A DNA stretch of 64,000 bases from Humisphaera borealis (lineage in GTDB: Bacteria > Planctomycetota > Phycisphaerae > Tepidisphaerales > Tepidisphaeraceae). The position numbers and the translations under genes were made by a program. Shown piece after piece: positions 476-46,208 of this stretch (position 1 is its first letter; the number at the start of each line of letters is the position of its first letter). The stretch spans positions 5,766,001 to 5,830,000 of the forward strand of contig NZ_CP063458.1 of the NCBI RefSeq assembly GCF_015169395.1, written 5' to 3'. Under the pieces are notes generated by a model. That model saw only the letters and a list, made by a program, of their open reading frames with translations. It searched no databases and was not told the origin of the DNA.

Positions 476-672
476 AATCTACGGCGAAACCCGACCGATT
501 GGGATGCCGTGCCGGGAGCACCAAATGCAGGCCCGGCCCAGCCCGAAAGACCCGAACTGGCGTCCGGCGTGCCCCGGCCCGCTATTGAGGATGACCGGCA
601 TCGACAGTCCGGATTGAAATATCAAATTGCGCAGACATTTTTTGTCAGGTTTCCCGATCGAGCGGCACCAGC

Positions 673-1245
673 ATGGCGAGGACGATGCCAGAAGACCTCA
701 AAGACCTCACCCGGCGGTTCCTGGCTCATCGCCACCAGTTGCTCGGGTTTATCCACGGGCTGGTGCGGGACTTGGACGCTGCTGAAGAGATTCTGCAGGA
801 AGTCTGGATTCGGCTGGCCGACGCGGTCGAGCGGGATGTTGATATCCGTCAGCCCGAGGCCTGGTGTCGCGGGACAGCCAAGAACCTGGTGCTGCACTAC
901 TTCCGCAGCAAGCGGACGGCTAAGGTGACCGCCGACAGCCGGTTCCTGGACCTGGCCGAGCAGGCATTCGCCGAGGCCGAGCAGGGCCCGTCGCTCTGGA
1001 CGACTCGGCGTGAGGCGGTGTTCCGGTGCGTCGAGACGCTGCCCGACAAGAGCCGGGAGATCGTCCGCATGAAGTACGTCGAAGGCTTGAAGGTCGCGGA
1101 GATCGCCCGGAGAAAGGGCCGGTCGATCGACGCGGTCATGAAAGCCCTGTCGCGGATCCGCCAGGTGCTCGGCGAATGCGTCGAGCGCCGGCGGCTCGGC
1201 GAAGACGGCCTGGGATTACTCGCCGAAGGACCGGCCGGCAGTTAA
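673..1245 (+). CDS. ECF-type RNA polymerase sigma factor
   Basis: A 190-residue sigma-70-like protein. Region 2 is at about residues 10-80 (LLGFIHGLVRDLDAAEEILQEVWIRL, then the R-x-W-type helix around EAWCRGTAKN). Region 4 is at about 115-170 (VETLPDKSREIVRMKY and VAEIARRKGRSIDAVMKALSR, a helix-turn-helix). It belongs to the ECF group expanded in planctomycetes and verrucomicrobia. The next gene, 49 bases downstream, is a membrane FecR-WD40 protein, so the pair looks like a sigma factor with its membrane regulator. Met5 (position 685) is an alternative start. Target promoters cannot be read from this window. Confidence 0.9.
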   Translation: MARTMPEDLKDLTRRFLAHRHQLLGFIHGLVRDLDAAEEILQEVWIRLADAVERDVDIRQPEAWCRGTAKNLVLHYFRSKRTAKVTADSRFLDLAEQAFAEAEQGPSLWTTRREAVFRCVETLPDKSREIVRMKYVEGLKVAEIARRKGRSIDAVMKALSRIRQVLGECVERRRLGEDGLGLLAEGPAGS

Positions 1246-1294
1246 CAGCGATCGTGCGGCAGTTGCAGATTAGCGACCTCAGAAACGGCCCGAA

Positions 1295-3199
1295 ATGTCC
1301 GACACCCCGTCCATCGACGACCTGCTTCTGGCCTGGCGTGAAGACACGCTGACGCCGGAGCAGTACGAGCAGTTGGTGGCGCGGCTTGCGTCGCCGGAGG
1401 CTCGCCGGGCGCTGGTCGAAGAGTTCACCTTCGCGGCGGTCGTACGGGAATCTGCGGCACTGTCGCCGCCCGAAGTCGACGAGCAACTCGTCGCCGTCAA
1501 TTCCGAAGAACTAGAGTCCATCCTGGCGTCGCGGGCGAGCCGGATCGAAGTCGATGGGGACTTCAGGTCCGCCCCCGCGGCCCCGATGGATTTCTTCGGC
1601 GCGGCGCGAGCTCGCCCGGTCCTCTTCTCTTTCAAGACGCTCGCTCTGCGAACAGCCGCGGTCGCGGCGATCGTGCTTGTTTCGGCGACGGCGGTCTGGC
1701 GGTTCGGGTTCGTGCCGGACGAGCCGGTGCCGGTCTCGGTTCTGGCGCCGCAGCCTGCCGCTCCGGTGGCCCGCGTGGTCTCGGTCGCCGGCGCTCTGGA
1801 AGTCCTCAGCCCCGATGGTACGGTCCGCTCGGCGATCGCCGGCGAGGGTGTCCACCGCGGCCAGACGCTCCGCACCCTCGGGATGGACAGCTACGCCACC
1901 GTCGAGTTTGACGACCGCACCCGGCTGGAACTGTCGGTCGATACGACCATGCGGTTCGGTGACAGCGATGTCGCGCTGGGCAAGCGCGTCTACTTCGCGG
2001 GAGGCGTGCTGCGGGCGGATGTGGCCAGGCAACCGGCAGGCCTGCCCATGGTCATCTCGAGCCCGCAGGCAGAAATTCGCGTCGCCGGCACGCGGTTCAG
2101 CGTTTCGTCGGCGGCTTCGCAGGCGACGCGGATCGACATGGAAACCGGCTCGGTTCAGCTCGTCCGCCAGTCCGACGGGCGGACGGTCGAAGTCACCGCC
2201 GGCTCCTACGCCGTCGCTCGGGCCGACTCAGATCCGGTCGTGGTTCAGAAGGTTCCCCGGTTCATCGCATCACCGAGAGCCACGTTCACGATCAAGAATG
2301 TGTCCGGCGTTTTCGCCGATCCGCGGGGCAACCGAATTTACGCGGCGACCGTGCGGGGTATGCAGGCGTGGGATTCGTATGCTCGCGTGGACCAACAGCT
2401 CTTCGAGCGATTCGGGGATCTGACCGCCAGCGCGTTTGCCTACGCCGGCCGGACCGTGGCGATAGCGGCGGGGCGCGAAGGGCGGATTCACCTCTGGGAT
2501 CTACAGGCAGGCCGTGACCGCTTGGTGCTCAACACGCCGCTGTCGTATAGCAGGGTGATTGCGGTGGCGCCGGACGGAAGCTGGGTCGCCGCGGTCAACC
2601 CGCGGGCCGAGAACGAATTCCACCTGTTCGATACCGTCGGTGGGGTGGATGGGATCGAACGGTTCGTCGTCAGGATCGACGAAGCCAAGGCAATTCGCGC
2701 GCTGGCGGTGTCGGCGTCGGGGACTCGGCTTGCGGTCGCGTCGCATGCGGACAAGCGCATCGGCATCCACCGGCTCTATCTCTACGATCCCCGCACGGGG
2801 CAGTCCATGGGCGCGCTCGCAGGGCACGCCAGCCCGGTGCGATCGGTCGCGTTCAGCCCCGACGGCCGCGTGCTGGCATCCGCCGCCGAGGACGGCACCC
2901 TCCGGCTCTGGAACGTCGCAAAGCGATCGCTGCTGCTGCACATCGACGGATACGAGCAGTCGCTGAATTGCCTGGCATTCTCGTCGGACGGGCACCGAAT
3001 CGCCGGCGGCGGCAACGACGGCCGTGTCTGGATCTGGGACGCCCGGACCGGCAACCTCGAAATGGTCGTCAACGGCGGCTTTCGCGCGGTCAAAAGCATC
3101 GCCCTGACGCCCGACAATCGATATCTCGCGGTCGCGGGGTTTGATACGCGGATGATGGTGTTCGAGCTGCCGGTCGAGGCAGGAACGTATCGCCGCTGA
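1295..3199 (+). CDS. FecR-domain membrane protein with WD40 repeats, probable sigma regulator
   Basis: A 634-residue protein in three parts. The N-terminal ~100 residues are acidic and helical, like the cytoplasmic anti-sigma part of FecR-type regulators, but with no visible zinc-binding HxxxCxxC. A membrane helix lies at about 112-133 (TAAVAAIVLVSATAVWRF). A FecR domain covers roughly 150-260 (VVSVAGALEVLSPDG, then strands around VAGTRFSV). The C-terminal half is a WD40-type propeller, clearest at about 508-540 (GHASPVRSVAFSPDGR... LRLWN) and again with VWIWDARTG. Family knowledge: FecR relays an outside signal to an ECF sigma factor. Inference: the propeller outside the membrane senses a ligand and the N-terminus holds the upstream sigma factor. 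Confidence 0.85.
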   Translation: MSDTPSIDDLLLAWREDTLTPEQYEQLVARLASPEARRALVEEFTFAAVVRESAALSPPEVDEQLVAVNSEELESILASRASRIEVDGDFRSAPAAPMDFFGAARARPVLFSFKTLALRTAAVAAIVLVSATAVWRFGFVPDEPVPVSVLAPQPAAPVARVVSVAGALEVLSPDGTVRSAIAGEGVHRGQTLRTLGMDSYATVEFDDRTRLELSVDTTMRFGDSDVALGKRVYFAGGVLRADVARQPAGLPMVISSPQAEIRVAGTRFSVSSAASQATRIDMETGSVQLVRQSDGRTVEVTAGSYAVARADSDPVVVQKVPRFIASPRATFTIKNVSGVFADPRGNRIYAATVRGMQAWDSYARVDQQLFERFGDLTASAFAYAGRTVAIAAGREGRIHLWDLQAGRDRLVLNTPLSYSRVIAVAPDGSWVAAVNPRAENEFHLFDTVGGVDGIERFVVRIDEAKAIRALAVSASGTRLAVASHADKRIGIHRLYLYDPRTGQSMGALAGHASPVRSVAFSPDGRVLASAAEDGTLRLWNVAKRSLLLHIDGYEQSLNCLAFSSDGHRIAGGGNDGRVWIWDARTGNLEMVVNGGFRAVKSIALTPDNRYLAVAGFDTRMMVFELPVEAGTYRR

Positions 3200-5405: not shown

Positions 5406-6113
5406 TCACTCCGCCGGCCGCAGGTCGCTCGTGTCCGTCGGCAGCTTGTCGGCGTTCAGGTCGGCCCACATCGCGGCCTCGGCGTCGAGCGGGCTCTTAA
5501 TGTTGTACGCCTGAAACGCCAGCATCTCGCCGATGCGGACGGCCAGGTCCACCAGCCGTTCGCCGGCCGCCCAGTGGTCGCCGACGCAGATCGTGGTCGG
5601 ATCGATATTGGGATGGAAGATCGGCGTCAGCATCCGGCACTTGGGGCTGATGCGCGGGTACTCGCTGGTGAGCTGGATCTCCACCTCGTGCAGTTGCCGC
5701 GGCACGGGCTGGTTCGGCTTCTTGCCGCGGTCCAGGCTGTTCACCTTGTACGCCAGCCGGTATAGCTCCGGCGGACTGCCTTCGGTGGAGATCACCCGGA
5801 TGTGCGGCGAGTTGGCGAACGCCGACGCCATCTGCTCGGCGTCGGCCGTCAGTCGGCGAATGCGCATGGGGATTCGGCGGGGCTCGCTCGCGACGGCCGC
5901 TTCCGTCGGCTTCGCAGTCGTCGCCGAACCGCCGGCGACGACCGGCGCGACGGCGGCTGGGGCGAGGGCGTCACCCTCTTTCGGTGCGGGTTCGAAATCC
6001 GTCTGCGGCACGACAACGTCCGAACCGCAGGTGCGGCATTTGGCGCGACGTCCGGCGTCCTGGTCGCGGACGGTGAACGCCCGGGAACATTGGGGGCAAT
6101 TAAAGTGAATCAT
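5406..6113 (-). CDS. Ubiquitin-conjugating E2-like enzyme with N-terminal zinc ribbon
   Basis: A 235-residue protein. Residues 4-36 are a small zinc ribbon (FNCPQC ... AKCRTCG, two CxxC pairs). A Pro/Ala/Thr linker follows (38-78). Residues ~85-222 are an E2 (UBC) fold: EVEIQLTSEYPRISPKCR matches the E2 beta-meander, IFHPNI carries the H-P-N at 167-169, and TICVGDHW places the catalytic Cys at 176, seven residues after the Asn as in eukaryotic E2s; SPLDAEAA matches the conserved 'pln..aa' helix. Role by family: accept a Ub-like protein from the E1 as a thioester and pass it to a lysine. The start at 6113 (MIHFNC) is preferred because the longer reading frame would run into the upstream RING gene. 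It is the last gene of the six-gene set, 65 bases after the RING-FHA gene. Confidence 0.9.
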   Translation of the reverse strand: MIHFNCPQCSRAFTVRDQDAGRRAKCRTCGSDVVVPQTDFEPAPKEGDALAPAAVAPVVAGGSATTAKPTEAAVASEPRRIPMRIRRLTADAEQMASAFANSPHIRVISTEGSPPELYRLAYKVNSLDRGKKPNQPVPRQLHEVEIQLTSEYPRISPKCRMLTPIFHPNIDPTTICVGDHWAAGERLVDLAVRIGEMLAFQAYNIKSPLDAEAAMWADLNADKLPTDTSDLRPAE

Positions 6114-6178
6114 GCGATGGCGTTCCAAGACCTTCGGTCGATGAGCGGTCGCACCGCAGGTGCACCGGCCGATACCGG

Positions 6179-7735
6179 CTACTTTCGACCGTAGAGGAAT
6201 AGGAAATACGACACCGCCGCCCCCGCGGCAACCCCCACGGCCGACAATGCGATCGCGCCGTAGATCGGCCCGGCTTTGCGTTCCGGGTCGGCCTTGCTGC
6301 GAACGAGGTAGAGAATCGACCAGACCAGCATGCACAACGACGCCACGCCGAAGGTAAAGCCACTGACAACCGCACCCACCGCGCTGAGACCGAGCAACAC
6401 AAACTCCCATGGCGTGCGCGGGGGAGACATGTCGATCGTGGCGTCTTCGGCGGTCACTTCAGGTTCGGCCGACGGTTCGGGCTGCGGAGCAAGCGCGTTG
6501 ACCTGCGGACACCCGTACGCCGAACAACCGTAATTCTCCTGCCAGCACTCGACGTGAAACCTGAGATTGCAGGAAGGACATGCCGTAAGCGATTCGCCAG
6601 GAAGGATCGGCGAGTGGCAAACGCCGCACTTGAACTTGCCCGCGACGGCAGGCGGCTCTGTGTAGGTCGCCGGTTCGGGGGCGACGAAGGTGGTCGCGGC
6701 GTCAATGACAGGTGCGGGCGCGGTGATGCCCGATGGCGTCATCCGGGCCGATGGCGGGGCGGCGAGCGTTTGCGTTGGTGCCGGGGTCGGTGCCGGGGTC
6801 GGTGCCGGGGTCGGTGCGGGCGTCACCGGAATGGCGATCACCGGAGATTCGACGACATCTTCCGCTGCGATGACATCGTCCACCGTCGCGGGGGAGGACG
6901 CCGACACCACCGGCGCAGCCGCTTCTGGCGGCAGTGCGAGGCGGTCGGCGGTATGGGAGCTTGTCTGTGACGAACCGATCTCCGAGGGCATCGCGACGGA
7001 CGCATCCGGGGCTTCGCCGGCAGTCGCGGATGACGGCGCGGGGCGATCGGCGGGCGCTGGTTGCTCCTTTGGAGGCGTCGCTACACTCGCCACTGGCTGA
7101 ACTGGCGCGGCCGGGCGGGGCTTGTACTGCGGGATCGGTGCTGGCGGCGCTTGAGGCAGAGTTGCTGCCGTTGTTGCCGCGACGGCTTCGTTGGGCGTGA
7201 TCGCAGGCGCTACAGCTGTGGCGACGACGGCGGCGGCAGCGGAACGCGACGCCGCCGGTGCGTTCACCACCGAACGCGGGATCGTGAATCCTTCGCCACA
7301 GTAGGTGCAAATCCCGCCATGGCCCGCGTACTGCTTGGACGCCCACATCGGCGCACGGCAATGCGGGCAGTCGAAGCGGATGCCGATATCGCGGGCGAGC
7401 ATGACCGGCTCGCGCGGCAGGACCAGCGGTTGTACATCCGCCGGGACAGTGTCACCTGATTGAAACGTCAGTCGAGCCGGCCCGATTTCGATCACGTCGC
7501 CGGCAACGAGCTTGCGGCGTTTGGCGAGGGGTTGGCCGTTGACGCGGGTGCCGGTGCGGCTCCGCATGTCGGTCAGGATAAAATCCGCGCCGCGCTGGTC
7601 GATCCAGGCGTGCATCCGCGAAACGGTCGGGTCGTCGATGATCAGATGGTTCATCGACCGCCGGCCGATGAGAACCCGGGCGGGCAGCTTGGTGCCGCGA
7701 GTCCCTCCTTGATGTTCGACAAGCAGCAGGGCCAT
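6179..7735 (-). CDS. FHA - zinc ribbon - RING-like - membrane protein, candidate E3 ligase
   Basis: A 518-residue protein. Residues 1-92 are an FHA domain (VLIGRRSMNH, SRMHAW, TRVNGQPL: the Gly-Arg, Ser-Arg-x-His and Asn-Gly signature that binds phosphothreonine). Residues 119-153 are a zinc ribbon (FDCPHC ... ICTYCG). A long Ala/Pro linker follows, with PAPT units around residues 300-325. Residues 370-409 are a binuclear treble clef: Cys370, 373, 386, 389, His394, Cys397, 404 and 409, with H-V-E-C-W, matching what I know as the prokaryotic RING family (Prok-RING_1). Residues 444-516 hold two or three membrane helices of the DUF4190 kind. Between UBL/E1/JAB and E2 genes, its best guess is the E3 or scaffold. 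Ligase activity is inferred. PAPT repeats may vary between strains. Confidence 0.85.
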   Translation of the reverse strand: MALLLVEHQGGTRGTKLPARVLIGRRSMNHLIIDDPTVSRMHAWIDQRGADFILTDMRSRTGTRVNGQPLAKRRKLVAGDVIEIGPARLTFQSGDTVPADVQPLVLPREPVMLARDIGIRFDCPHCRAPMWASKQYAGHGGICTYCGEGFTIPRSVVNAPAASRSAAAAVVATAVAPAITPNEAVAATTAATLPQAPPAPIPQYKPRPAAPVQPVASVATPPKEQPAPADRPAPSSATAGEAPDASVAMPSEIGSSQTSSHTADRLALPPEAAAPVVSASSPATVDDVIAAEDVVESPVIAIPVTPAPTPAPTPAPTPAPTQTLAAPPSARMTPSGITAPAPVIDAATTFVAPEPATYTEPPAVAGKFKCGVCHSPILPGESLTACPSCNLRFHVECWQENYGCSAYGCPQVNALAPQPEPSAEPEVTAEDATIDMSPPRTPWEFVLLGLSAVGAVVSGFTFGVASLCMLVWSILYLVRSKADPERKAGPIYGAIALSAVGVAAGAAVSYFLFLYGRK

Positions 7736-7919
7736 TGGGCAAATCGTGGTGGTGTGTTCGAGCGGTGGGGTGGTGGAGTAAAGAAAAGGCTATACGCTGG
7801 CTTTGAATTCGGTGCACCAAGTCTCGGTATCTCGGACCAAGAGAGCCTTGTACGAGTGCGCGAACGCCATGGCGCTATCTTACTCGACTACCCCCGCCAC
7901 GCAGTTACAGCACCGATGC

Positions 7920-9377
7920 TCATCCTTGTTCCTTCTCCATAAACACCAGTTGCGTCGATCCCACCTGGATGCGATCGCCGTTTTTCAACCGTGTTCGGCT
8001 GACGGCTTTGCCGTTGACCAGGGTGTTTACGCCCAGGGGCATGTCTTCGATGTCGAAGCCGTTGGGGACGATGTGGATCGCCGCGTGTCGCTTGCCGACC
8101 TTGGGGTCTTTGAACAGGTAGATCTGGCAGTCGGGCGACGATCCGATGTACGTCGGGTTGCGGTAGAGGATGAACTGCTTGCCCGCGATCAGCCCCTGGC
8201 TGACCTTCAGCCAGCCACTCTTGGCGGCGTCTTCGATCAGGCCGGTGGCCAGGCCCGCGAGCAGGCCGATGGAAATCATCGCCACGAGTTCGGGGATGCG
8301 GGGGTAGTCCTTGACGAAACTCAGTTCGCTGATGGGTTCGAACAGCACGCCGCCGATCAAGCCACCGATCAAGCCGCCGGTCAGGCCGATCGCGAGTTTC
8401 TTCTTATTGCGCATGACGATGCCAGGCGCAAGGGTGAGGAAGATGCCCAGCGCACCCCAGGTCGCGATGGTGGCCAGGTATTGCTGCGTACTGCTGGCCG
8501 GTGAGTTGGCGACGAGTCCCTGGATGCGGCTGGTGACGAATGCCGCCGCGACGCCGCCGAGCAGTCCCAACGCCGCTCCGACCGAGCCATTGACGACCGT
8601 CGCCTGAATGTTGTTCTCGGTGAGCGGAACTGCAATCGCCAGGAGCATTCCCAGGACCACGCCACGCACGCCGTATGCGAGCACATTGCCGATGAACGAC
8701 CGGAGGCTCTCCCGCTCGACGACCGTTTCGGCTTCCTTCTCGCGGGTGGCCGCCATCGTATCGAGCTTCTGAATTTTGGCTTTGTCAGAGAGCGAGTCGT
8801 CGGTCATCACGGCGAAGTCGGGGTTTTCGCGCCGGCCCAGTTCCAGTTCCTTATCGCGACGCGATTTGGCTTCTTCGGGCGTGATTTCCTTGGTCCGCTC
8901 CAGGACGGTGATGCGGTCGAGCATCATTCGCCGGAACTGCGCGTCTACGGGAATGACGGTCAGGGCGAAATGCGGATTCAAACCCCGGCCGTTCTCGACG
9001 GCGTCGGTGATCGAGAGCCTCGCGGTATCGTACTTGAGCGTTCCCTCTTCGGTGAGCTTGATAAGCCTGCGAATGCCGTCGATGCGTTCGACCGAGTCCT
9101 TGCGGATGTCGGCTTTGAATTCGAGGAGGGTGCCCAATCCCCAGGCGAGCAGCCCGCCGATCAGGCCGAACAACGCCAGCGCGAAAATGCTGTTCCGCCA
9201 GAGCGCCTCGAGGGTGCTTGGCGCGGACGCTTCGGTGGGCGCGACCATCGTCTCGTCCATCGCCGCGTACACGCGGTTGCGCGCCAGCGCATCCTGTTCC
9301 TTGAGCCGCTGTTCCACTTTCCGGCTGTTCAGGTCGTCGTAGTTGACGGTGATCTTTTCTGGCGTCTGCTCAGACAT
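7920..9377 (-). CDS. Multi-pass membrane protein with C-terminal FHA domain
   Basis: A 485-residue protein. Hydrophobic segments appear at about residues 62-88 (NSIFALALFGLIGGLLAWGL), 240-300 (YGVRGVVLGMLLAIAVPL; SVGAALGLLGGVAAAFV) and 310-375 (ALGIFLTLAPGIVM; Gly-rich GLTGGLIGGLIGGVLFEP; VAMISIGLLAGLATGLI). Between the first two is a charged helical region rich in Glu/Lys/Arg. The last ~92 residues are an FHA domain (YIGSSPDCQI, VGKRHAAIHI, NTLVNGKAV). FHA domains read phosphothreonine, so the protein can recruit phosphorylated partners to the membrane. It is the fourth gene of the Ub-like set. The gap to the JAB gene (104 bases) holds a palindromic repeat; the gap to the RING gene (184 bases) could hold an internal promoter, but none is convincing. 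Confidence 0.85.
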   Translation of the reverse strand: MSEQTPEKITVNYDDLNSRKVEQRLKEQDALARNRVYAAMDETMVAPTEASAPSTLEALWRNSIFALALFGLIGGLLAWGLGTLLEFKADIRKDSVERIDGIRRLIKLTEEGTLKYDTARLSITDAVENGRGLNPHFALTVIPVDAQFRRMMLDRITVLERTKEITPEEAKSRRDKELELGRRENPDFAVMTDDSLSDKAKIQKLDTMAATREKEAETVVERESLRSFIGNVLAYGVRGVVLGMLLAIAVPLTENNIQATVVNGSVGAALGLLGGVAAAFVTSRIQGLVANSPASSTQQYLATIATWGALGIFLTLAPGIVMRNKKKLAIGLTGGLIGGLIGGVLFEPISELSFVKDYPRIPELVAMISIGLLAGLATGLIEDAAKSGWLKVSQGLIAGKQFILYRNPTYIGSSPDCQIYLFKDPKVGKRHAAIHIVPNGFDIEDMPLGVNTLVNGKAVSRTRLKNGDRIQVGSTQLVFMEKEQG

Positions 9378-9392
9378 AGGGGTCGGTTTCGC

Positions 9393-9478
9393 ATGGCACA
9401 GGCATTCAGCCCGTGCCTTGTTCGCGAGACGGTAGTCCGCGACGGTACTCTTGCGGGCAGGGCTGAACCCTGCACCGG
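9393..9478. repeat. Imperfect long palindrome between the JAB and FHA genes
   Basis: The segment GCATTCAGCCCGTGCC near 9407 is mirrored by GGGCAGGGCTGAACCCTGC near 9457, giving an imperfect hairpin with a spacer of about 35 bases. It sits inside the six-gene set and could attenuate transcription or stabilise the mRNA end. Confidence 0.5.
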
Positions 9479-9481
9479 AAC

Positions 9482-10552
9482 CTAATTCGACCGCAGGGGG
9501 AGCGTCGGGGTGGAATCCCGTGACCGCTCGCCCGAACCCGCCGCAGGCACCGCCGGGCTGGTCGTCGGCGCGTTCGCCTTGGACGGAAGGACCAGCGGCA
9601 CGACGAGCGGCCAGATGATCGCTACCGCCAGCAGGATTGCAAACCCCGCCGACAACAACTTGACTCGAGCTTCCAATACGCCGATTCGCTGGGCCAGTTC
9701 TTCGACGGCCGCCGGCACGGCCGGTGTTTTCGGATCTTCCTGAAAGTCGGTTGGGGACGACAGATACGGAAGTGTCGGGAAGACCGGTTCGGCGGACTTT
9801 CCGGACCGTTCGTCGTCGATCACATAATCAACACGGCGCACCTGGGCCTGACGCCAGGCAAACATCCCCGACTCGCGCGACTGCGGATCGACGACGAACG
9901 CCATCTGCCACGGCGAATTGAAGAAGTGCCGCTGGATGAACAGGTCCATCTCCGACAGGAAGATCCCGAACCCCGGGTGCGTGTGGTACCACGCGATGAT
10001 CTTCTTGCCGGGGTGCTTCTCCTCCATCACCTTATGAATGTGTTGCCATGTTTCGGCGGTGAAGGTGACGGCGGTGCTCCGGCCGCTCGAGGCTTCGCCT
10101 CGGATCGCGCCGTCAATATAGACGAACGACGCCTGCGGGTTCTCGTACACCGTGCCGATCAGGACCCCGCAGACTTCGACGCCCGGGTACTCGTCGCCGT
10201 GGGCGGTGACCTGTTCGAGGACCGCCTTCTTCATGATCGACTGGAACAGCGGGTGATCGGGATCGAGCTTGGGCGCATCCTTCAGCGGTTTGACGGATAT
10301 CGATGCCCGCAGCGCGGCTTCGGCCGAATCGCTGCCGGGCGAGATTGCAGGTTTCGGTCCGGCTACGGCGGGGGCATCGGACCCGACGGGATCGTTCTGC
10401 GTGGCCGCATCCAGCAGCGCCGCGACAGGATCGCCGGTACCGGTCTGGTGTTCATGGGGACGTGCCTGGGGCGCAGACGTACCTCGCGTCGCTGAGGGCT
10501 GGTCGGCCTCGTCGGCGGGTGGCAGCTTGGATGATTTCGGGTCTACGTCCAT
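9482..10552 (-). CDS. JAB/MPN (JAMM) metallo-isopeptidase with C-terminal membrane anchor
   Basis: A 356-residue protein. Residues 1-95 are a disordered-looking Pro/Ala/Gln-rich leader. Residues ~104-245 are a JAB/MPN domain with an intact JAMM motif: Glu126 (GVEVCGVLIG), His190 and His192 (WYHTHPGFGIFLSEMD), Ser200 and Asp203. Family members remove ubiquitin or trim Ub-like precursors, using one zinc. A helix at 302-322 (AGFAILLAVAIIWPLVVPLV) anchors the protein by its C-terminus. The start at 10552 (MDVDPKSS) overlaps the end of the E1 gene by 10 bases, which points to translational coupling; an earlier in-frame start at 10603 would overlap by 61. Role inferred: process the UBL at 11945-12223 or deconjugate it. 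Confidence 0.92.
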   Translation of the reverse strand: MDVDPKSSKLPPADEADQPSATRGTSAPQARPHEHQTGTGDPVAALLDAATQNDPVGSDAPAVAGPKPAISPGSDSAEAALRASISVKPLKDAPKLDPDHPLFQSIMKKAVLEQVTAHGDEYPGVEVCGVLIGTVYENPQASFVYIDGAIRGEASSGRSTAVTFTAETWQHIHKVMEEKHPGKKIIAWYHTHPGFGIFLSEMDLFIQRHFFNSPWQMAFVVDPQSRESGMFAWRQAQVRRVDYVIDDERSGKSAEPVFPTLPYLSSPTDFQEDPKTPAVPAAVEELAQRIGVLEARVKLLSAGFAILLAVAIIWPLVVPLVLPSKANAPTTSPAVPAAGSGERSRDSTPTLPLRSN

Positions 10553-11856
10553 TCCAGTGCCGGTCCGTCCCAAAGGGGTCCCAGAACGTCTTCGGCGTCC
10601 CACGACAGCTCCAATCCTATCGATCGGTTCTCCGAGGCCGTCGCCCCGGAACGCCGCCCGATCAAAATGTCGTAAGGCGGCACGCCGATCTCCGCCGGCG
10701 TCTTGCCCAGAAACGACTCATTCCCGCGAATCTTGTAGAAGGTGACCACGTCACGCCGCACATCTTTCCCGCTTTGCTTGCAATGCGGGCACCAGGCGGC
10801 GTCGGCGGCAACCCGGCCCAGCGACACGAACATCTCCACCTGCTCGCCGCAGACGGGACATGCAAGCTTGTGCAGCACGTCGCGCGGCAACTCCAGTTCG
10901 GCCGTCGGCCCCAGTGCCTTGCGGGCCTCGGCCAATAAATCGGCCAGCGTGATCTCTCCCGCCCGGGCATCCAGTTCCAACACTTCGTCAAGCGTATCGT
11001 GGCTCAGACAATCGTCTTTGCGCTGGAACTCGACGGTGTAAGCCTCGGTGGTAAAGCCATCGAACACCCAGCCCTTGCCGGCGATTGTCGGCAGGCCGTG
11101 CAGCATCTTGACGGCTTCCTGCGTCTGTACGCCGGCAATAATGCTGCTGATCGTCGGGGTGGTGGGTGTTTTGCCGGTCACCATTTCAGCCCGCGACAAA
11201 AGATTGCACGACCGCCGCATCTGCAACAGTCGCCAGTCGGTATCGGACATGGTGCATTCGTAGCACGGGCCGGCGGGGTCGAAAACGCGGGCGGTCCCCT
11301 GAATGACTTCGATCGCACCGTCGATCCAGGGCTTGTTCAACTTCATGCAGGCGCGGTTGATCGACAGCCGGGCCTCGCGGTTGTCGAGGCCGCCGATCAC
11401 CACGTCCGCCCACCGGTAGACGCCAAGCCCCAAGTCGTAAACGGCGTTGGCGACCAGTGCGTGGGTTTTCTGATCGGGATAGATGTCGCGGGCGGCCCGG
11501 GCGGCGGCGACAGACTTGGGTGAACCGTTGTCGCTGGCGCGGTACAGCACCGACCGGGAAAGATTCGAGTTCTCGACCTTGTCGAGATCGACCACCAGCA
11601 CGTTCCCAATCCCCAGCAGGGCAAGATTCTTCAGGATCTCATTACCCAGTGCCCCGGCACCGATCACCAGAACCTTGGCCGCCCGGAGCTTGTTCTGATC
11701 CCACCACCCGATGAGCTTAAAGCGATCGAAACGATCGCCGGATTCGTCGCCGACATCAATACGAATCGGAGCGACGGCCGGCGTGGCGGCGTCGATGCCC
11801 TGCGTCGGCGACGCATCGGTGGGTCCCACGAGCTTGATCTCATCCTTGAGCGACAT
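10543..11856 (-). CDS. E1-like ubiquitin-activating enzyme (ThiF/MoeB/UBA family)
   Basis: A 437-residue protein. The nucleotide-binding GAGALGNE is at 66-73. SNLSRSVLY (97-105) aligns with the E1 SNL-R-Q block that carries the catalytic Arg. GLDNREARLSINRAC (156-170) is the Asp-Asn-Arg block. CYEC at 198-201 is the CxxC found in UBA3 and MoeB, and Cys217 (RRSCNLL) sits where UBA3 has its thioester Cys. Two further pairs, Cys333/336 and Cys356/359, form a zinc ribbon, so there are more zinc-binding cysteines than a minimal MoeB needs. The C-terminal ~70 residues are specific. Family role: adenylate a Ub-like C-terminus, hold it as a thioester and hand it to the E2. ATG at 11856 is preferred to TTG at 11862. 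Confidence 0.93.
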   Translation of the reverse strand: MSLKDEIKLVGPTDASPTQGIDAATPAVAPIRIDVGDESGDRFDRFKLIGWWDQNKLRAAKVLVIGAGALGNEILKNLALLGIGNVLVVDLDKVENSNLSRSVLYRASDNGSPKSVAAARAARDIYPDQKTHALVANAVYDLGLGVYRWADVVIGGLDNREARLSINRACMKLNKPWIDGAIEVIQGTARVFDPAGPCYECTMSDTDWRLLQMRRSCNLLSRAEMVTGKTPTTPTISSIIAGVQTQEAVKMLHGLPTIAGKGWVFDGFTTEAYTVEFQRKDDCLSHDTLDEVLELDARAGEITLADLLAEARKALGPTAELELPRDVLHKLACPVCGEQVEMFVSLGRVAADAAWCPHCKQSGKDVRRDVVTFYKIRGNESFLGKTPAEIGVPPYDILIGRRSGATASENRSIGLELSWDAEDVLGPLWDGPALEWT

Positions 11857-11944
11857 GAGCAAAGAAAAACAAAGAACGCGAGAGCACCGAAGCTCGGGGG
11901 AGGCAGCGGTACGACAGCCCCGTCAGTCGCCGACCCTTGGAAGC

Positions 11945-40421: not shown

Positions 40422-41852
40422 CTACTTCTGCACCAGATCCACCCGCATGGAAATGACCTTCCCGTCGCGCAACACCTTTAGCTCGGTCAACCCCTGCCGG
40501 GCGGCGATCGCGGCGGCGAGCGTCGGAATGTTATGCACCGGATCGCCGGCGAGGGTCAGGATCAGGTCGCCCTTCACCAGGCCACCGCGCTCGGCGACGG
40601 AATCCTTCATCACCTGGTCGATCCGCACCGCCGGACGATCGCCCAGATCGGCGTTCTGCCGGGCCGGATCGTTGGCGTCAACCTGACTGATGATCACGCC
40701 CAGTGTCGCCCGCCGAACTGCGCCGTGACGGACGATCTGGTCCGCGATCAGCTTGCACGCGCCGCCGGAAAGAAACTGCCCGTGCCGCGCGATCCCGGCA
40801 ACTTGGCCGTCGATCGTCAGGACAACACCCAGATCACGCGCTCCGCTGCTCCAGACCGCTAGCCTCGCGGCACCGTCGATCGGCGACAGCATCAGTACGA
40901 CGGACCCTTCCGGCAGTGGCTTATCCGACAGGATCACCGGCTTGCCGAGGCAGGCAAAGGCGTCGGCCGCATTGGCGCCATTCTTGGCTTCGGCCTTGCT
41001 CTTGGCGTGCGCGGGGGCATTCAGTTGCAGGACCGTCAACTGGGTCTGCTGATCCGAACCCACGAACCGGGCATAGATCGGTTCCCCGTCGCCGCAGGCC
41101 AGCTTGATCGGCTGCTCTCCGACCGCTTCACGCTCCACGTAAACCGGGACCAGGACATGATGATCATTGAGTAACAGACCCAGGCTGTTGGCGGCGAAGG
41201 GTTGTTTGTTGGCTACCGCAACGTTGCTGACCGCCTGCTGCTGTGGCTGCTGTTCCATCGCCTGCTGCGGCGGGACGATGATGGTGTATCCCTGCTGACC
41301 CTTATTTTGGAGCGTGTTGTCTCCGGCACCGCCGGGAACGCCGCCGGGCGGAGCACCGACCGTGGACTGACTCGCCGACCCCGAGTTCGATCCCACATTC
41401 GACCCCGAGTTCGATCCCGGGTTCGACCCCGGCGATGTCGCCGGACCGGCGCGGTTGGCCGAGTCGGCGTCGTAATTCCCGCGCGTCGCCCGCTGCTGCA
41501 GGCTCTGGCGGACCTCGGAATTGAGGTTCCACTTCTGGAACCGGGCATCGTTGGCTACGTCGTTGTTCCAGCGCGGCGTCGGCATCTGCACCCGCAGGAC
41601 GCTCCCCTGCATCCGCTCGAACAGGCTGACGCACTCGAAGTTCAGCCGCTCCAGTTCCGGAAAAGCAGGTCGGGTTGCCGGCCTGGTCGCCGCCTCGCTG
41701 CTCTGACCGGACGATCGCGGAGCGATCGTTGCCTGTAAGACCAGGATCGCCAGCAATAGACCGGTCGGTCGGCGGCGGCGGGAATGGGCGATTGGCTGAC
41801 TCAATTCATCAACTCCGTCAGTGTCGCAGCCGATCCGGCGACGACACTTCAA
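40422..41852 (-). CDS. Degenerate HtrA-like (trypsin fold + PDZ) exported protein
   Basis: A 476-residue protein. RRRRPTGLLLAILVLQATIA is a signal or anchor. Gln/Ser-rich and SNxGSN-repeat regions fill ~90-200. The trypsin-like domain (~215-370) keeps the His in GLLLNDHHVL (HtrA: TNxHV) but the Asp site reads GSDQQTQLTVLQL (Gln for Asp) and the serine site GNSGGP is replaced by GARDLGVVL, so the triad lacks Asp and Ser. The C-terminal PDZ domain (~375-470: RIDQVMKDSVAERGGLVKGDLILTLAGDPV) is intact. A pseudoprotease that binds peptides is the likeliest reading. It follows a sigma/anti-sigma pair, as DegS follows the sigma-E logic. Confidence 0.8.
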   Translation of the reverse strand: MKCRRRIGCDTDGVDELSQPIAHSRRRRPTGLLLAILVLQATIAPRSSGQSSEAATRPATRPAFPELERLNFECVSLFERMQGSVLRVQMPTPRWNNDVANDARFQKWNLNSEVRQSLQQRATRGNYDADSANRAGPATSPGSNPGSNSGSNVGSNSGSASQSTVGAPPGGVPGGAGDNTLQNKGQQGYTIIVPPQQAMEQQPQQQAVSNVAVANKQPFAANSLGLLLNDHHVLVPVYVEREAVGEQPIKLACGDGEPIYARFVGSDQQTQLTVLQLNAPAHAKSKAEAKNGANAADAFACLGKPVILSDKPLPEGSVVLMLSPIDGAARLAVWSSGARDLGVVLTIDGQVAGIARHGQFLSGGACKLIADQIVRHGAVRRATLGVIISQVDANDPARQNADLGDRPAVRIDQVMKDSVAERGGLVKGDLILTLAGDPVHNIPTLAAAIAARQGLTELKVLRDGKVISMRVDLVQK

Positions 41853-41874
41853 CGTTCGGGGCTACGAACCGCTT

Positions 41875-42483
41875 CTAAAGTCCGGACTGCATCAGGACCG
41901 TCTGCCCATACTTCGCCTGGGCCTGTTCGGCCTCCCACTTGCTAAGTTCCGCGGCGAACGCCTTGGCGTCCTCGAGCGTGTCGAACTTTTGAATCGCGGT
42001 GATGTTGCCAGCTTCGTCGGTAAGCGCGACCTGATAAAGGAACGGGGCAGCCGAACCGCCTTCGGCAATCGCTTTGGCACCATCGGGCGACTGGCCCGGC
42101 GTCATGGCAGCCGTCGCGGTCGAACCCCGTCCGATCCATCCGGCCGAGAAACAGACCAGGCACGCTGCCACGGCAATCCCGGCGCGAACGTAGTTCCGCG
42201 AACGCTCCCAGAAACCGGCGCGACGGATCGATCGCACCACCTGCCGCGACACCGTTCGGCTCTCGGCGACCGAGCCTTCGAGCGACGTCCAGACCGCCTG
42301 ACGGACGGTGAAATCCTCGCTCAGGCGCGCCAGTGCCGACGACAGATCGGCATCAGCGGCAAGCCTCTGCTGCAACGACTGCAACTGGGCCGACGAAAGC
42401 TCGCCGTCGAGGTACGACTCCAGCAAAGCCAGGTCCGGATCGACCGGAAGGTCATCGGAGGATGGGTGGGGGTGATGATTCAC
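41875..42483 (-). CDS. Probable anti-sigma factor, single-pass membrane protein
   Basis: A 202-residue protein. The N-terminal ~95 residues are helical, LDGELSSAQLQSLQQRLAADADLSSALARL, like RsiW-type anti-sigma domains but without a zinc motif. A membrane helix lies at ~102-120 (AGIAVAACLVCFSAGWIG), and a C-terminal domain of ~70 residues (VALTDEAGNITAIQKFDTLEDAKAFAAELSKWEAEQ) is presumably outside. It sits 72 bases after the ECF sigma gene and 22 bases before the HtrA-like gene, all on one strand. The role as an anti-sigma is inferred from topology and position. Confidence 0.72.
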   Translation of the reverse strand: MNHHPHPSSDDLPVDPDLALLESYLDGELSSAQLQSLQQRLAADADLSSALARLSEDFTVRQAVWTSLEGSVAESRTVSRQVVRSIRRAGFWERSRNYVRAGIAVAACLVCFSAGWIGRGSTATAAMTPGQSPDGAKAIAEGGSAAPFLYQVALTDEAGNITAIQKFDTLEDAKAFAAELSKWEAEQAQAKYGQTVLMQSGL

Positions 42484-42555
42484 GTTTACTCCTCAAAATC
42501 GCAGCGTTCACAATCGTATCAATCCGGGTTCGAGCCGCCGATCGCACGGCAACGA

Positions 42556-43179
42556 CTACCGCTCTCGCTCGTCGGTGCCTTCCTTAAGCATCTCCGCCAG
42601 CAATCGCCGGCCGCGATGCAGCCAGGTCTTGATCTGCGGAATGCTCGCATTCAGCACCTGGGCGATCTGCACGTAGGCCATGCCTTCGTATTCACACAAC
42701 ACCAGGGCGGCGCGGAAGTTTTCGGGCAGCCGACCGATCGCCTGGCGGACCCGCGCGACAGTCTCACGGTCGATCATCGGATCGGCCGGGGACGCATCCT
42801 GACCACGGCGGCCGCGGTCGTCGGGATACTCGTCGGCAACGACCGACATCCGCGGCTGACGCAAAAGCCGCAAGGCCTCGTTGACAACCGCCCGGCGCAT
42901 CAGTGCACCGGCGGCACCCGGGTTGGCCCAATCATAGCGCGCGCGGTGTTGAAAGAGATTCGTCAGTGCCTGTTGTACAACGTCTTCGGCACTGGCCCGG
43001 TTCCCGGCAATCGCCCGGGCGATCGCCAGCAGTCGCCGTGTGTGCAGACCGACTGCCTCTTCGAAGAGACGAATCGTGTGCGGGTCAGGGCGTGCGGCCA
43101 CCTCGGCGTGACCGTCAGGGAGGCTGCCAGTCACGGCTTCAAGTGCGGATTGCGGTGTCGTCGCGCCCGAAAGATTCAT
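42556..43179 (-). CDS. ECF-type RNA polymerase sigma factor
   Basis: A 207-residue sigma factor. Region 2 is at ~30-110 (LFEEAVGLHTRRLLAIARAIAGNRASAEDVVQQALTNLF), region 4 at ~145-200 (AIGRLPENFRAALVLCEYEGMAYVQIAQVLNASIPQIKTWLHRGRRLL). Start at 43179 (MNLSGATT) is preferred; a start at 43287 would add 36 unconserved residues. It heads the four-gene set with the anti-sigma and the HtrA-like PDZ protein. Confidence 0.9.
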   Translation of the reverse strand: MNLSGATTPQSALEAVTGSLPDGHAEVAARPDPHTIRLFEEAVGLHTRRLLAIARAIAGNRASAEDVVQQALTNLFQHRARYDWANPGAAGALMRRAVVNEALRLLRQPRMSVVADEYPDDRGRRGQDASPADPMIDRETVARVRQAIGRLPENFRAALVLCEYEGMAYVQIAQVLNASIPQIKTWLHRGRRLLAEMLKEGTDERER

Positions 43180-43485
43180 GCGACGGATCTCGTCAGGGCA
43201 TTCGGCGGCGTCCGGAGACAATGTCCGGCGGCTTCCGCCACCATCCGTTTCGCCGCGGCTCACATTACACAGAACGCGCGACCCCACGAGAAGTTGCAGC
43301 GGATCGGGGAATCTCTGAATGCGGCGTAGCCTCCGATCTCCATAAATCGCGAAAATGTGGATTCCTATTCCCTCGATTCATCACCATTTGCGCGAAGCGG
43401 ATGTATATTGTTCAGATCGCATGAGCACCCAGGCTAAGGTTAGTTCGGGCGCGTCATCGCCTCTTGGCACCGGGAACACGTTGAC
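43180..43485. other. Divergent intergenic region, sigma operon and VTC operon
   Basis: A 306-base gap between the ECF sigma gene (minus) and the VTC gene (plus). If the sigma gene starts at 43287 it is shorter. An AT-richer patch at about 43330-43420 may hold promoters; no dyad or hairpin was found. Confidence 0.35.
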
Positions 43486-44331
43486 ATGATGGAAACTCGG
43501 GAAGGCATGTTTGATCCTGAGTCCCAGATCGGACTTGGCGACAAGGCAGTTCGGCTGGCGGGTCTTGATCCCACCATTGATCCCAACCCCATCACCATCC
43601 AGTCGCCAGGACTGGGCGCAGGCGCCGGAATGGGTGCCGCGTTCGAGCTGAAGTTCCACATTGACCCCGATCTGGCGAGTCGCGTCGAACATTGGGCCGC
43701 TGGGCACCTCGTCCCGGACTGCCACGGGAATGCCGGCAAATACGCCGTCACCAGCGTCTACTGCGACACCCCGACGTTCGATGTCTTTCACCGCTCGCCG
43801 GGCTATCGCCGCGTAAAGTTTCGCCTGCGTCGGTATGATGCCTCGACCGAGGCATTTCTGGAGCGCAAACGGAAGCGCGGGACGCAGGTGATCAAGCGAC
43901 GGACGTCCATAAACTTCGAAGAGTTGCCGAGGCTCTCAGACCTCGCAGCTGCCCAGCCCTGGGCCGGCAACTGGTTCCACAAGCGGGTTTGCCGTCGCAA
44001 TCTGCGACCCACCGCGTGCGTGAGCTACACCCGCACCGCATTCTTCGGAATGGCAGACGCCATGCCCGTCCGCATGACGATCGACCGCGACCTGATTGGA
44101 GTCCCAACCGATCAGTGGCACATTCCGCATCTGAGCGCCGGAACACCGTTGCTGCCCGACGGCGTCCTGGTGGAACTGAAGTTTCATGTTCAGGTACCGA
44201 CGATCTTTCGCGAGCTGATGACCATGCTGCCGCCGCAACTGGCGCGGGTATCGAAGTATCGGCGATGCATCACCGCCTGCGGCATCGGACCGGGCGCCTC
44301 CACTTCGGCCGCCAGCGGGGAGACTTCCTGA
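43486..44331 (+). CDS. VTC-domain (polyphosphate polymerase-like) protein
   Basis: A 281-residue protein. The VTC domain starts at about residue 53 (FELKFHIDPDLASRVEHWA) and contains YAVTSVYCDTPTFDVFHRS, KFRLRRYDASTEAFLERKRKRG (a basic tunnel patch), YTRTAFFGMADAMPVRMTIDRDL and VLVELKFHVQVPTIFRELM, the Glu-x-Lys pairs typical of the triphosphate tunnel fold. Eukaryotic VTC4 makes polyphosphate; bacterial members next to DUF4956 and CotH genes are less understood. The first ~50 residues are not conserved and Met49 (43630) is an alternative start. Its stop overlaps the next start (TGATG). Confidence 0.88.
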   Translation: MMETREGMFDPESQIGLGDKAVRLAGLDPTIDPNPITIQSPGLGAGAGMGAAFELKFHIDPDLASRVEHWAAGHLVPDCHGNAGKYAVTSVYCDTPTFDVFHRSPGYRRVKFRLRRYDASTEAFLERKRKRGTQVIKRRTSINFEELPRLSDLAAAQPWAGNWFHKRVCRRNLRPTACVSYTRTAFFGMADAMPVRMTIDRDLIGVPTDQWHIPHLSAGTPLLPDGVLVELKFHVQVPTIFRELMTMLPPQLARVSKYRRCITACGIGPGASTSAASGETS

Positions 44332-44996
44332 TGCCCTGGTGGCTAGAGCAGACGTTACAGGTCGAACAAGAGATCACACCGGCGGTCATCCTCAAACGAC
44401 TGGGGATCGCGTTCGTCTTCGGGTGCGTGGCGGCGGGGATCCATCGGTTCACTTGCAGACGCACCGTGGACGGCGACCAACCCGCGCTGGCGGCGACGCT
44501 GGTGCTGCTGGCCGTCCTGATCGCGTTGGTCATGCTGGTGATCGGTGAGAGTGTGGCGCGGGCCTTCAGCCTCGCCGGCGCACTGGCGATTGTGCGATTC
44601 CGAACGGTCGTTGAAGACACGCGCGACACGGCCTTTGTCATGTTCGCCGTGATCTCAGGCATGGCTGCCGGCACGGGCTACTTCATGGGGCCCATCGTAT
44701 GCACCCCGGTCGTCCTGCTGGCCGCCTGGCTGTTCAGGAAGCGCCCGCACTCGCTGAATAGTCCGCAGTCCCGGCTCACCATCCGGATGGCATCGGGCAA
44801 GACGATCCATCCCCGAATCGGCGAGATCCTGACCACCAGCGTCAGCTGGCACCGCCTGTCGGGACTCAGCACGGCCCGCGGCGGCACGGCGCTGGATGCG
44901 ACTTACGACATCGAACTCCCGCCGGCCGAAGCGGTTTTCACGCTGGTTGACGAGCTGTCAAGAATAGAGGGCGTCCAGGACGTCGAACTCAAGTAG
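44331..44996 (+). CDS. DUF4956 membrane protein
   Basis: A 221-residue protein. Helices at ~20-40 (KRLGIAFVFGCVAAGIHRF), ~55-75 (AATLVLLAVLIALVMLVIG) and ~98-130 (VMFAVISGMAAGTGYFMGPIVCTPVVLLAAWLF), then a soluble ~75-residue domain ending in EIPxxEAV-like ELPPAEAVFTLVDELSRIEGVQDVEL. FRTVVEDTRDTAFVMFAVISGMA is a clear DUF4956 mark. The 1-base overlap with the VTC gene shows translational coupling. Confidence 0.9.
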   Translation: MPWWLEQTLQVEQEITPAVILKRLGIAFVFGCVAAGIHRFTCRRTVDGDQPALAATLVLLAVLIALVMLVIGESVARAFSLAGALAIVRFRTVVEDTRDTAFVMFAVISGMAAGTGYFMGPIVCTPVVLLAAWLFRKRPHSLNSPQSRLTIRMASGKTIHPRIGEILTTSVSWHRLSGLSTARGGTALDATYDIELPPAEAVFTLVDELSRIEGVQDVELK

Positions 44997-45023
44997 AATA
45001 CGCCCCGCCCGAAGGAGCATCCC

Positions 45024-46208
45024 ATGGACCGGCAATCCCCCTCGCGTCGCGAGATCCTGACCTTCGCGGTATCGGCCGCAATCGCTTCGGTCCTCCCCGA
45101 AATCGCATCGGGCAAGAGCCTCAACGAGCAGCGCAACGAGCTCTTTGACGGCGGCAAAATTCTTACCCTCGCGATCGAGATCGACAACGACGGCATGAAG
45201 TCGCTGCGCGAAGACACCAAAAAGTACGTCAAGGCGCAGATCAAGGAAGACGGCCAGCCCAGGTACAAAAACGTCGGCGTGAAACTCAAGGGGGCAGCCG
45301 GAAGCATGCGCGGCGTGGACGACAAGCCCGGCTGGACCCTCAACATGGACAAGTTCGAGGACGGTCAGCGGTTCTGGGGAATGGACAAGCTCCACCTCAA
45401 CAACTGCGTCCAGGACCCCAGCTACATCTCAGAAGGGCTTTGCGGCGAGATGTACCGAGCCGCCGGCGTTCCCGCCTCGCGACTGACCAACGCCATCGTG
45501 AGCCTCAACGGCCGCAAGCTCGGCTTCTATGCCATTAAAGAAGGCTACGACAAGGGATTCCTTAAGAACCACTTCGGCAGCACCGACGGCAACTTCTACG
45601 ACGGCGGATTCCTCAGAGACCTCGACCAGCCACTCGAAAACAACAACGAAGGCAAGGACCCGGCCAAAGACCATGCCGACCTCAAATCGCTGATGGAAGT
45701 GTCGCAGGAAGCGGACCTGCAACGCCGGTTCGACCGGATGAGCCGCCGGCTCGATATCGATAAGTTCGTCAGCTACCTGTCCCTCCAGATGCTCACTTGG
45801 GACTGGGACGGCTATCCGATGAACCGAAATAACTATCGCATCTACCACGACCCCAAGACCAACCTCCTGACGTTCCTGCCTTCGGGCATGGACCAGATGT
45901 TCGGCGATCCGAACGGGCCTCTGTTCCCCAATGCCCAGGGCGTGATCGCGCAGCGCTTTCTGGAAACGCCCGAAGGCAAGAAGCGTTATTTCGCCCGCAC
46001 CGAACAATTGCTTGCCGATGTGTTCGTCCCCGATCGCTGGTCCAAGCGCCTCGATGAACTCCTCGCGCGCGTGCAGCCGGCTCTTAAGCAGGTCAGCGAA
46101 GGCGCGGCAAAAGACCTTCCCGGCCAATTCGATCGCATCCGCGACGGCATCAAGCAGCGGGCAAAGAAGATCAAGGAAGACCTGGCCAAGTCAAAGGCGA
46201 AGAAGTAG
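45024..46208 (+). CDS. CotH-family protein kinase-like, TAT-like exported
   Basis: A 394-residue protein. SRREILTFAVSAAIASVLP looks like a twin-arginine signal. CotH features: VGVKLKGAAGSMRG, GWTLNMDKFEDGQRFWGMDKLHLNN, YAIKEGYDKGFLKNHFGSTDGNFYDGG and LPSGMDQMFG (the D-x-D-like metal region of the kinase fold). CotH proteins phosphorylate spore-coat or extracellular proteins. Together with VTC and DUF4956 it forms a recurring three-gene set; the 27-base gap suggests cotranscription. Confidence 0.9.
   Translation: MDRQSPSRREILTFAVSAAIASVLPEIASGKSLNEQRNELFDGGKILTLAIEIDNDGMKSLREDTKKYVKAQIKEDGQPRYKNVGVKLKGAAGSMRGVDDKPGWTLNMDKFEDGQRFWGMDKLHLNNCVQDPSYISEGLCGEMYRAAGVPASRLTNAIVSLNGRKLGFYAIKEGYDKGFLKNHFGSTDGNFYDGGFLRDLDQPLENNNEGKDPAKDHADLKSLMEVSQEADLQRRFDRMSRRLDIDKFVSYLSLQMLTWDWDGYPMNRNNYRIYHDPKTNLLTFLPSGMDQMFGDPNGPLFPNAQGVIAQRFLETPEGKKRYFARTEQLLADVFVPDRWSKRLDELLARVQPALKQVSEGAAKDLPGQFDRIRDGIKQRAKKIKEDLAKSKAKK

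Follow-up and report, generated by a model that had tools for sequence, protein, structure and literature searches.

How might an extracytoplasmic function (ECF) sigma factor be governed by an operon whose HtrA-like protein has lost the residues needed for cutting? The question is posed by a 64,000-nucleotide stretch of the genome of Humisphaera borealis (contig NZ_CP063458.1, positions 5,766,001 to 5,830,000; this whole stretch is called the window here and its own numbering is used for its features), in which three genes on the minus strand encode an ECF sigma factor (42556–43179), a membrane anti-sigma factor (41875–42483) and an HtrA-like protein with a PDZ domain (40422–41852), the order in which a first-pass annotation had placed them. 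The host genome is 7.19 Mb in a single contig and its named relatives are mostly metagenome-assembled genomes of Phycisphaerae or Planctomycetota. The explanation that we favour, and which taken as a whole we hold to be evenly poised between right and wrong, is that the sigma/anti-sigma pair works with a dedicated exported pseudoprotease that holds the C-terminal tail of the anti-sigma factor and most likely caps it.

The fate of the catalytic triad was followed in three kinds of alignment: phmmer against DegQ-type chains, hhalign of a 32-member profile against six active, GNSGG-bearing HtrAs from the window genome and related genomes, and MAFFT in three modes. These alignments put Tyr238 (41139–41141) at the position of the catalytic His and Gln271 (41040–41042) at that of the Asp. 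The first-pass annotation was right to read Gln at the Asp position and to report the serine motif GNSGG as missing, but its statement that the His is kept depended on a register that phmmer, hhalign and all three MAFFT modes rule out, as His231 and His232 sit six to seven residues ahead of the catalytic position. Asp340 (40833–40835) occupies the Ser position in both hhalign runs and one MAFFT mode, an assignment that depends on the alignment, as the two other MAFFT modes leave a gap there because the serine loop is shortened. When the triad positions were compared across orthologues, as the same annotation had proposed, the His column held His in none of 36 pseudoprotease homologues of two families (6/6 in the active HtrAs), the Asp column held Asp in 3/36, and no serine motif was found at the site; strings resembling GxS[G/A]G occur in three of the 36, at residues 65, 65 and 211, all outside the serine loop. 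In the MAFFT mode that aligns the site, the Ser position is Asp or Glu in all 14 members of the window's family, suggesting constraint over drift. Taken together, these alignments support the view that the HtrA-fold protein of this operon is catalytically dead, and given this loss of the triad it is unlikely to make the site-1 cut in the anti-sigma factor. Decay to a pseudogene was considered and rejected, because constraint acts on the substituted positions and, in both families, the reading frames inspected are intact. The one exception is G010 (locus L059, 4446–5530 of that locus), where the pseudoprotease gene is split into two overlapping frames, which could be genuine damage or a sequencing error.

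The fold around the altered site is that of an HtrA protein. The window protein is 476 residues long when read from the listed TTG codon, a start that is uncertain, and phmmer ranks DegQ/DegP-type proteins first among PDB sequences; the pseudoprotease profile aligns with the active HtrAs at an hhalign probability of 98.96. An AlphaFold2 (AF2) model computed from 32 sequences has a mean predicted local distance difference test (pLDDT) score of 71.7, with 201 residues at 90 or above and a long low-confidence linker (residues 125–215, 41208–41480, pLDDT below 50) after the first strand of the protease-like domain. DegP and DegQ head the Foldseek list obtained with this model (E 1.5e-16), and structural comparison of model residues 63–476 with HtrA proteins gave a VIA Z of 20.6 and a root-mean-square deviation of 4.2 Å over 258 residues; a trypsin-like double barrel is followed by a PDZ domain, as in the HtrA/DegP architecture. 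The protein falls far below the NCBIfam cut-offs for the DegP/DegQ/DegS models (58.8 bits vs 416.2 for TIGR02037, 33 vs 422.95 for TIGR02038), and Pfam Trypsin_2 gives a weak match in only 5 of the 32 members. The PDZ domain (residues 383–473, 40434–40706), by contrast, is matched by PDZ models in 32/32 members and in the window protein by two of them above the Pfam cut-off (PDZ, 5.6e-6; PDZ_6, 2.6e-8). It opens with a TLGV loop (residues 383–386, 40695–40706), of a type that we take to be the carboxylate binder of HtrA PDZ domains, and Gly385 in this loop is invariant in the 32 aligned members; the PDZ domain is thus intact, as had been annotated. Near the N-terminus lies a hydrophobic segment (residues 29–49, 41706–41768; hydropathy maximum in windows starting at residues 29–31) that could be an export signal or an anchor.

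The anti-sigma factor (202 residues) was recognized from its AF2 model, its hydropathy and its pairing with the sigma gene; no Pfam model matches the window protein at E≤0.01, but 11/36 aligned members match zf-HC2. The model has helices at residues 16–25, 31–43, 45–68 and 72–119, the last of which includes the only hydrophobic helix of the protein, a predicted transmembrane helix at about residues 99–119 (42127–42189; hydropathy 1.85 over 19 residues from 99). The N-terminal helical domain and transmembrane helix are followed by a predicted periplasmic beta-beta-alpha domain (residues 150–192, 41908–42036), which is seen in the model and in conserved columns, and then by a flexible tail, VLMQSGL-COOH (41878–41898), that from the conservation of its end is a putative PDZ ligand, most orthologues ending in [D/G]-x-F. 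At each orthologous locus within contig reach the sigma gene adjoins the anti-sigma gene, a pairing from which the anti-sigma factor would be expected to bind the neighbouring sigma factor.

It is the very end of this tail that would connect the anti-sigma factor with the pseudoprotease. The anti-sigma factors encoded with the PDZ gene end in Phe in 39 of 41 genomes (13/15 in the window's family and 26/26 in a second family described below) and in Leu in the other two, the window (SGL) and G017 (AGL). When the 34 sequences from these operons were reduced at 60% identity to 21, 20 of the 21 had Phe at the last position and 19 had Asp or Gly at position −3; the entropy of the last position was 0.28 bits as against 1.44–3.50 at the 29 preceding positions, the last 30 residues having little in common but their very end. 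Orthologues from loci without the PDZ gene end otherwise: Arg (G002), Arg (G003), Glu (G018) and Leu (L109). In a tree of the sigma factors, built without L108 and L110 (both cut by contig ends) and L111 (no anti-sigma found), these loci (L112 with L113, L109 and L166, with anti-sigma ends R, R, L and E) nest within the clade that has the PDZ gene as about three lineages, so that the PDZ gene and the Phe seem to have been lost together. Paralogous anti-sigma factors of the class give no Phe and no Leu and a single Ile among the 26 with a known end (27 fetched), and no sigma factor and no complete pseudoprotease of the PDZ-operon loci ends in Phe. The first-pass annotation, correct as to the dead PDZ protein, had passed over the hydrophobic end that the anti-sigma factors conserve, and with it the probable identity of the PDZ ligand: the tail of the anti-sigma factor itself. 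The one paralogue that ends in Ile (GSI) belongs to a more distant operon (L203 in G362, 546–2780, minus strand), in which the sigma and anti-sigma genes are followed by that of an exported PDZ protein lacking any HtrA domain; this operon is possibly a minimal version of the same idea, and hints that gating by tail and PDZ domain may exist in more than one form.

The arrangement is not confined to the window. Of the 26 genomes of the window's family, 15 have the complete three-gene set in the same order (G000, G004, G007–G011, G015, G017, G019–G021 and G023–G025, G010 being counted despite its split third gene). Three more (G002, G003 and G018) have the sigma and anti-sigma genes without the PDZ gene, and when searched with the window's HtrA-like protein, G003 and G018 gave no match and G002 yielded just an active HtrA; in the remaining eight, some of them incomplete assemblies, there was no clear anti-sigma orthologue. 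Scanning the genome contigs with a sigma profile gave 44 loci and revealed the second Phycisphaerae family with the same gene order, and a search of 397 genomes of the class found 26 genomes of this family, all with the anti-sigma and PDZ genes together; the number is that of the matching genomes and is not a fraction of the family. The sigma gene is on the same contig in 25 of these 26, the contig of the other beginning at the anti-sigma gene. In a sample of 392 genomes drawn evenly from the phylum, 30 match the anti-sigma profile at E≤1e-10, and the matches listed, other than the window, end by profile position 143 of 182, short of the tail. As gene order and triad loss recur across many genomes, the operon is not a product of chance.

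Upstream of the trio lies a predicted autoregulatory ECF promoter (43271–43298, minus strand), with a −35 element TGCAAC (43298–43293), a spacer of 16 bases and a −10 element CGTTCT (43276–43271). The corresponding regions of the first family contain AACT-N13-CGC in 14/18 cases and AACT-N15-CGT in 10/18, as against a maximum of 6–7 in five shuffles, and the window's copy carries 13 of 16 consensus letters. In the second family, for which the raw count alone is given, TGnAAC-N16-CGT stands upstream of 16/21 sigma genes, many of them close relatives; the pattern resembles promoters used by ECF sigma factors elsewhere among bacteria. The −10 element overlaps a GTG or ATG start in several relatives, where the spacer also contains a GGAG string, so translation may account for part of the motif's conservation there; it does not coincide with the start in the window, in L103 or in L107. 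A strict form of the pattern matched 11 times in 26 genomes, six times upstream of the operon's sigma gene and five times elsewhere (reversed control, 6); it misses the window's own copy, whose −10 differs. The sigma factor itself consists of regions 2 and 4 only, as in ECF sigma factors (Pfam Sigma70_r2, 4.4e-9, and Sigma70_r4_2, 1.9e-12; 17-sequence alignment). Its preferred start is the ATG at 43179, which the promoter prediction supports, as the longer GTG frame from 43287 starts within the predicted promoter.

What the pseudoprotease might do can be approached through better known systems. HtrA sensors use their PDZ domains to read the C-terminal tails of misfolded outer-membrane proteins, and the peptides that the PDZ domains of DegS and AlgW take up end in Phe; the fold of RseB is probably not that of HtrA. 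In the Escherichia coli RpoE–RseA–DegS–RseP pathway, as the available part of PMC8103513 describes it, the PDZ domain of DegS binds the C-termini of unfolded outer-membrane proteins, and RseA can be cleaved only once RseB, which is bound to it, has been dislodged. The likeness to the window lies in an ECF sigma factor, a membrane anti-sigma factor and an HtrA-fold protein whose PDZ domain takes C-terminal ligands; the difference is that DegS, an active protease, makes the site-1 cut and is bound by the tail of an unfolded outer-membrane protein, whereas the window protein has no triad and it is the anti-sigma factor that carries the hydrophobic tail, mostly Phe among the orthologues. RseB, whose gene lies in the rpoE operon, and its counterpart MucB resemble the pseudoprotease as non-proteolytic periplasmic partners of an anti-sigma factor; the window protein has the HtrA plus PDZ fold. 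The Pseudomonas aeruginosa AlgW PDZ domain is bound by MucE, a small envelope protein with the tail ...RWVF, and MucB suppresses MucA cleavage (excerpted text of PMC8545111); this differs from the present case in that AlgW has protease activity and its ligand is no anti-sigma factor. In the FoxR/FoxA system of the same organism the anti-sigma FoxR is protected from proteolysis through its C-terminal domain by a partner protein, and Prc is involved (available part of PMC11637429); where the window has a PDZ pseudoprotease, that system has an outer-membrane transducer. None of these excerpts, nor the others cited here, describes a triad-less mycobacterial HtrA. The order sigma, anti-sigma, HtrA is also that of sigE–rseA–htrA in Mycobacterium tuberculosis.

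A protein with the shape of DegS but no triad, beside an anti-sigma factor that ends like a DegS ligand, would most simply be a tail binder, and we consider it probable that, in the periplasm, the free C-terminus of the anti-sigma factor docks in the PDZ domain. That such binding caps the anti-sigma factor and protects it from other envelope proteases in the manner of RseB and MucB, with release on stress and feedback, is a more tentative proposal, to which we give slightly less than an even chance; protection is favoured because of the analogy with RseB and FoxA/FoxR. On this proposal the pseudoprotease, exported by way of its hydrophobic N-terminus, would meet the anti-sigma factor in the periplasm, and the PDZ groove would hold its tail and so shield it from an active HtrA, a C-terminal processing protease or both, and then from the RseP-type site-2 protease; the genome encodes one such site-2 protease, three S41 peptidases and active HtrAs. 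Stress would free the tail, for example through misfolded proteins with exposed C-termini competing for the groove, and the freed anti-sigma factor would be degraded, releasing the sigma factor to transcribe its own operon from the TGnAAC-N16-CGT promoter; its activity would remake inhibitor and cap, giving negative feedback. The place that a site-1 protease has in other systems may thus be taken here by a protease-free PDZ receptor, the pseudoprotease deciding whether the tail ligand of the anti-sigma factor is hidden or exposed, and this we again put a little below the halfway mark. The earlier suggestion that the sensor binds without cutting, so that the relay must differ, was a fair deduction, with the binding a predicted one; the dead protease behind it has stronger support than was then argued, the His position being lost in 36/36 homologues of two families.

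Several observations weigh against this proposal. The window's own anti-sigma factor ends in Leu and not Phe, as does that of L109, which has no PDZ gene. The tail counts are inflated by kinship of the sequences, and several within-family forks of the sigma tree are weakly supported, which makes the number of PDZ losses approximate; outside the tree altogether are the sigma orthologues of L108, L110 and L111, and at L111 (4965–6568 of that locus, plus strand) the gene next after sigma encodes another kind of exported protein, 334 residues long, with no anti-sigma gene found beside the sigma gene. The search of 26 genomes with the promoter pattern revealed no regulon or further targets. Competition by the tails of outer-membrane proteins is not clearly supported, the genome's BamA ending in ...FGFIQ and a second Omp85-type frame in ...GHSF (two frames examined). 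Finally, that the PDZ domain holds the tail is something we infer from sequence, and the choice between protection and recruitment is made by analogy.

Recruitment is the form that the closest rival takes. The tail and PDZ evidence would also fit an adaptor that delivers the tail-held anti-sigma factor to an active protease, for example within a mixed HtrA oligomer, making the pseudoprotease an activator whose loss keeps the sigma factor off; active HtrAs are at hand in the genome and HtrAs form trimers, but RseB and MucB, the non-protease partners of comparable anti-sigma factors, protect instead of deliver, and we regard an adaptor as unlikely, if the least unlikely of the alternatives. Rather less likely is that the Phe tail is a degron, read by an S41 tail-specific protease or by the PDZ domain of the site-2 protease, with the pseudoprotease a separate chaperone that merely shares the operon. 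The three S41 peptidases and the RseP-type protease could supply the readers, but separate functions would not require the Phe to be absent from the four orthologues without the PDZ gene, and none of the 26 paralogous anti-sigma factors with a known end, which presumably face the same proteases, finishes in Phe.

A role without any contact with the anti-sigma factor, as a periplasmic holdase under control of the sigma factor, would leave the tail pattern as something inherited. HtrA proteins can act as chaperones (PepD, in the available part of PMC3062566) and shared ancestry does inflate the tail counts, but the terminal residue holds constant although the tail ahead of it diverges, and the Phe has been lost from every lineage without the PDZ gene, so that this reading appears improbable. 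Hardest to credit is that the protein continues to act as a protease by means of an unusual active site: the Asp or Glu at the Ser position in 14/14 members of the window's family does indicate some constraint on the site, but His is found in 0/36 homologues, the serine motif is missing at the site and the loop is shortened.

If the anti-sigma factor does carry such a tail and its receptor is unable to cut, envelope stress signalling can be controlled purely by competition for binding while other proteins do the cutting, and a bacterial HtrA pseudoprotease would gain a defined role. To our knowledge the envelope stress responses of the Planctomycetota have been little studied. A search of open-licence literature, covering titles and the starts of abstracts, gave no HtrA pseudoprotease in a sigma operon and no anti-sigma factor with a PDZ-binding tail among the matches listed, and the available part of PMC11266412 mentions neither sigma factors nor HtrA.

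Other genes of the window are noted here for completeness. Divergent from the operon on the plus strand (43486–46208) are genes for a VTC-domain protein, a DUF4956 protein and a CotH-domain protein (45024–46208). The minus-strand genes at 5406–11862 together look like an operon for ubiquitin-type conjugation, with a ThiF/E1-like protein (10543–11862), a JAB peptidase (9482–10603), a protein with an E2 (ubiquitin-conjugating) domain (5406–6410) and two FHA proteins (6179–7735 and 7920–9377), the former with a RING-like match below the Pfam cut-off. A FecR-domain protein with WD40 repeats, encoded at 1295–3199 on the plus strand, is possibly another regulator of a sigma factor.

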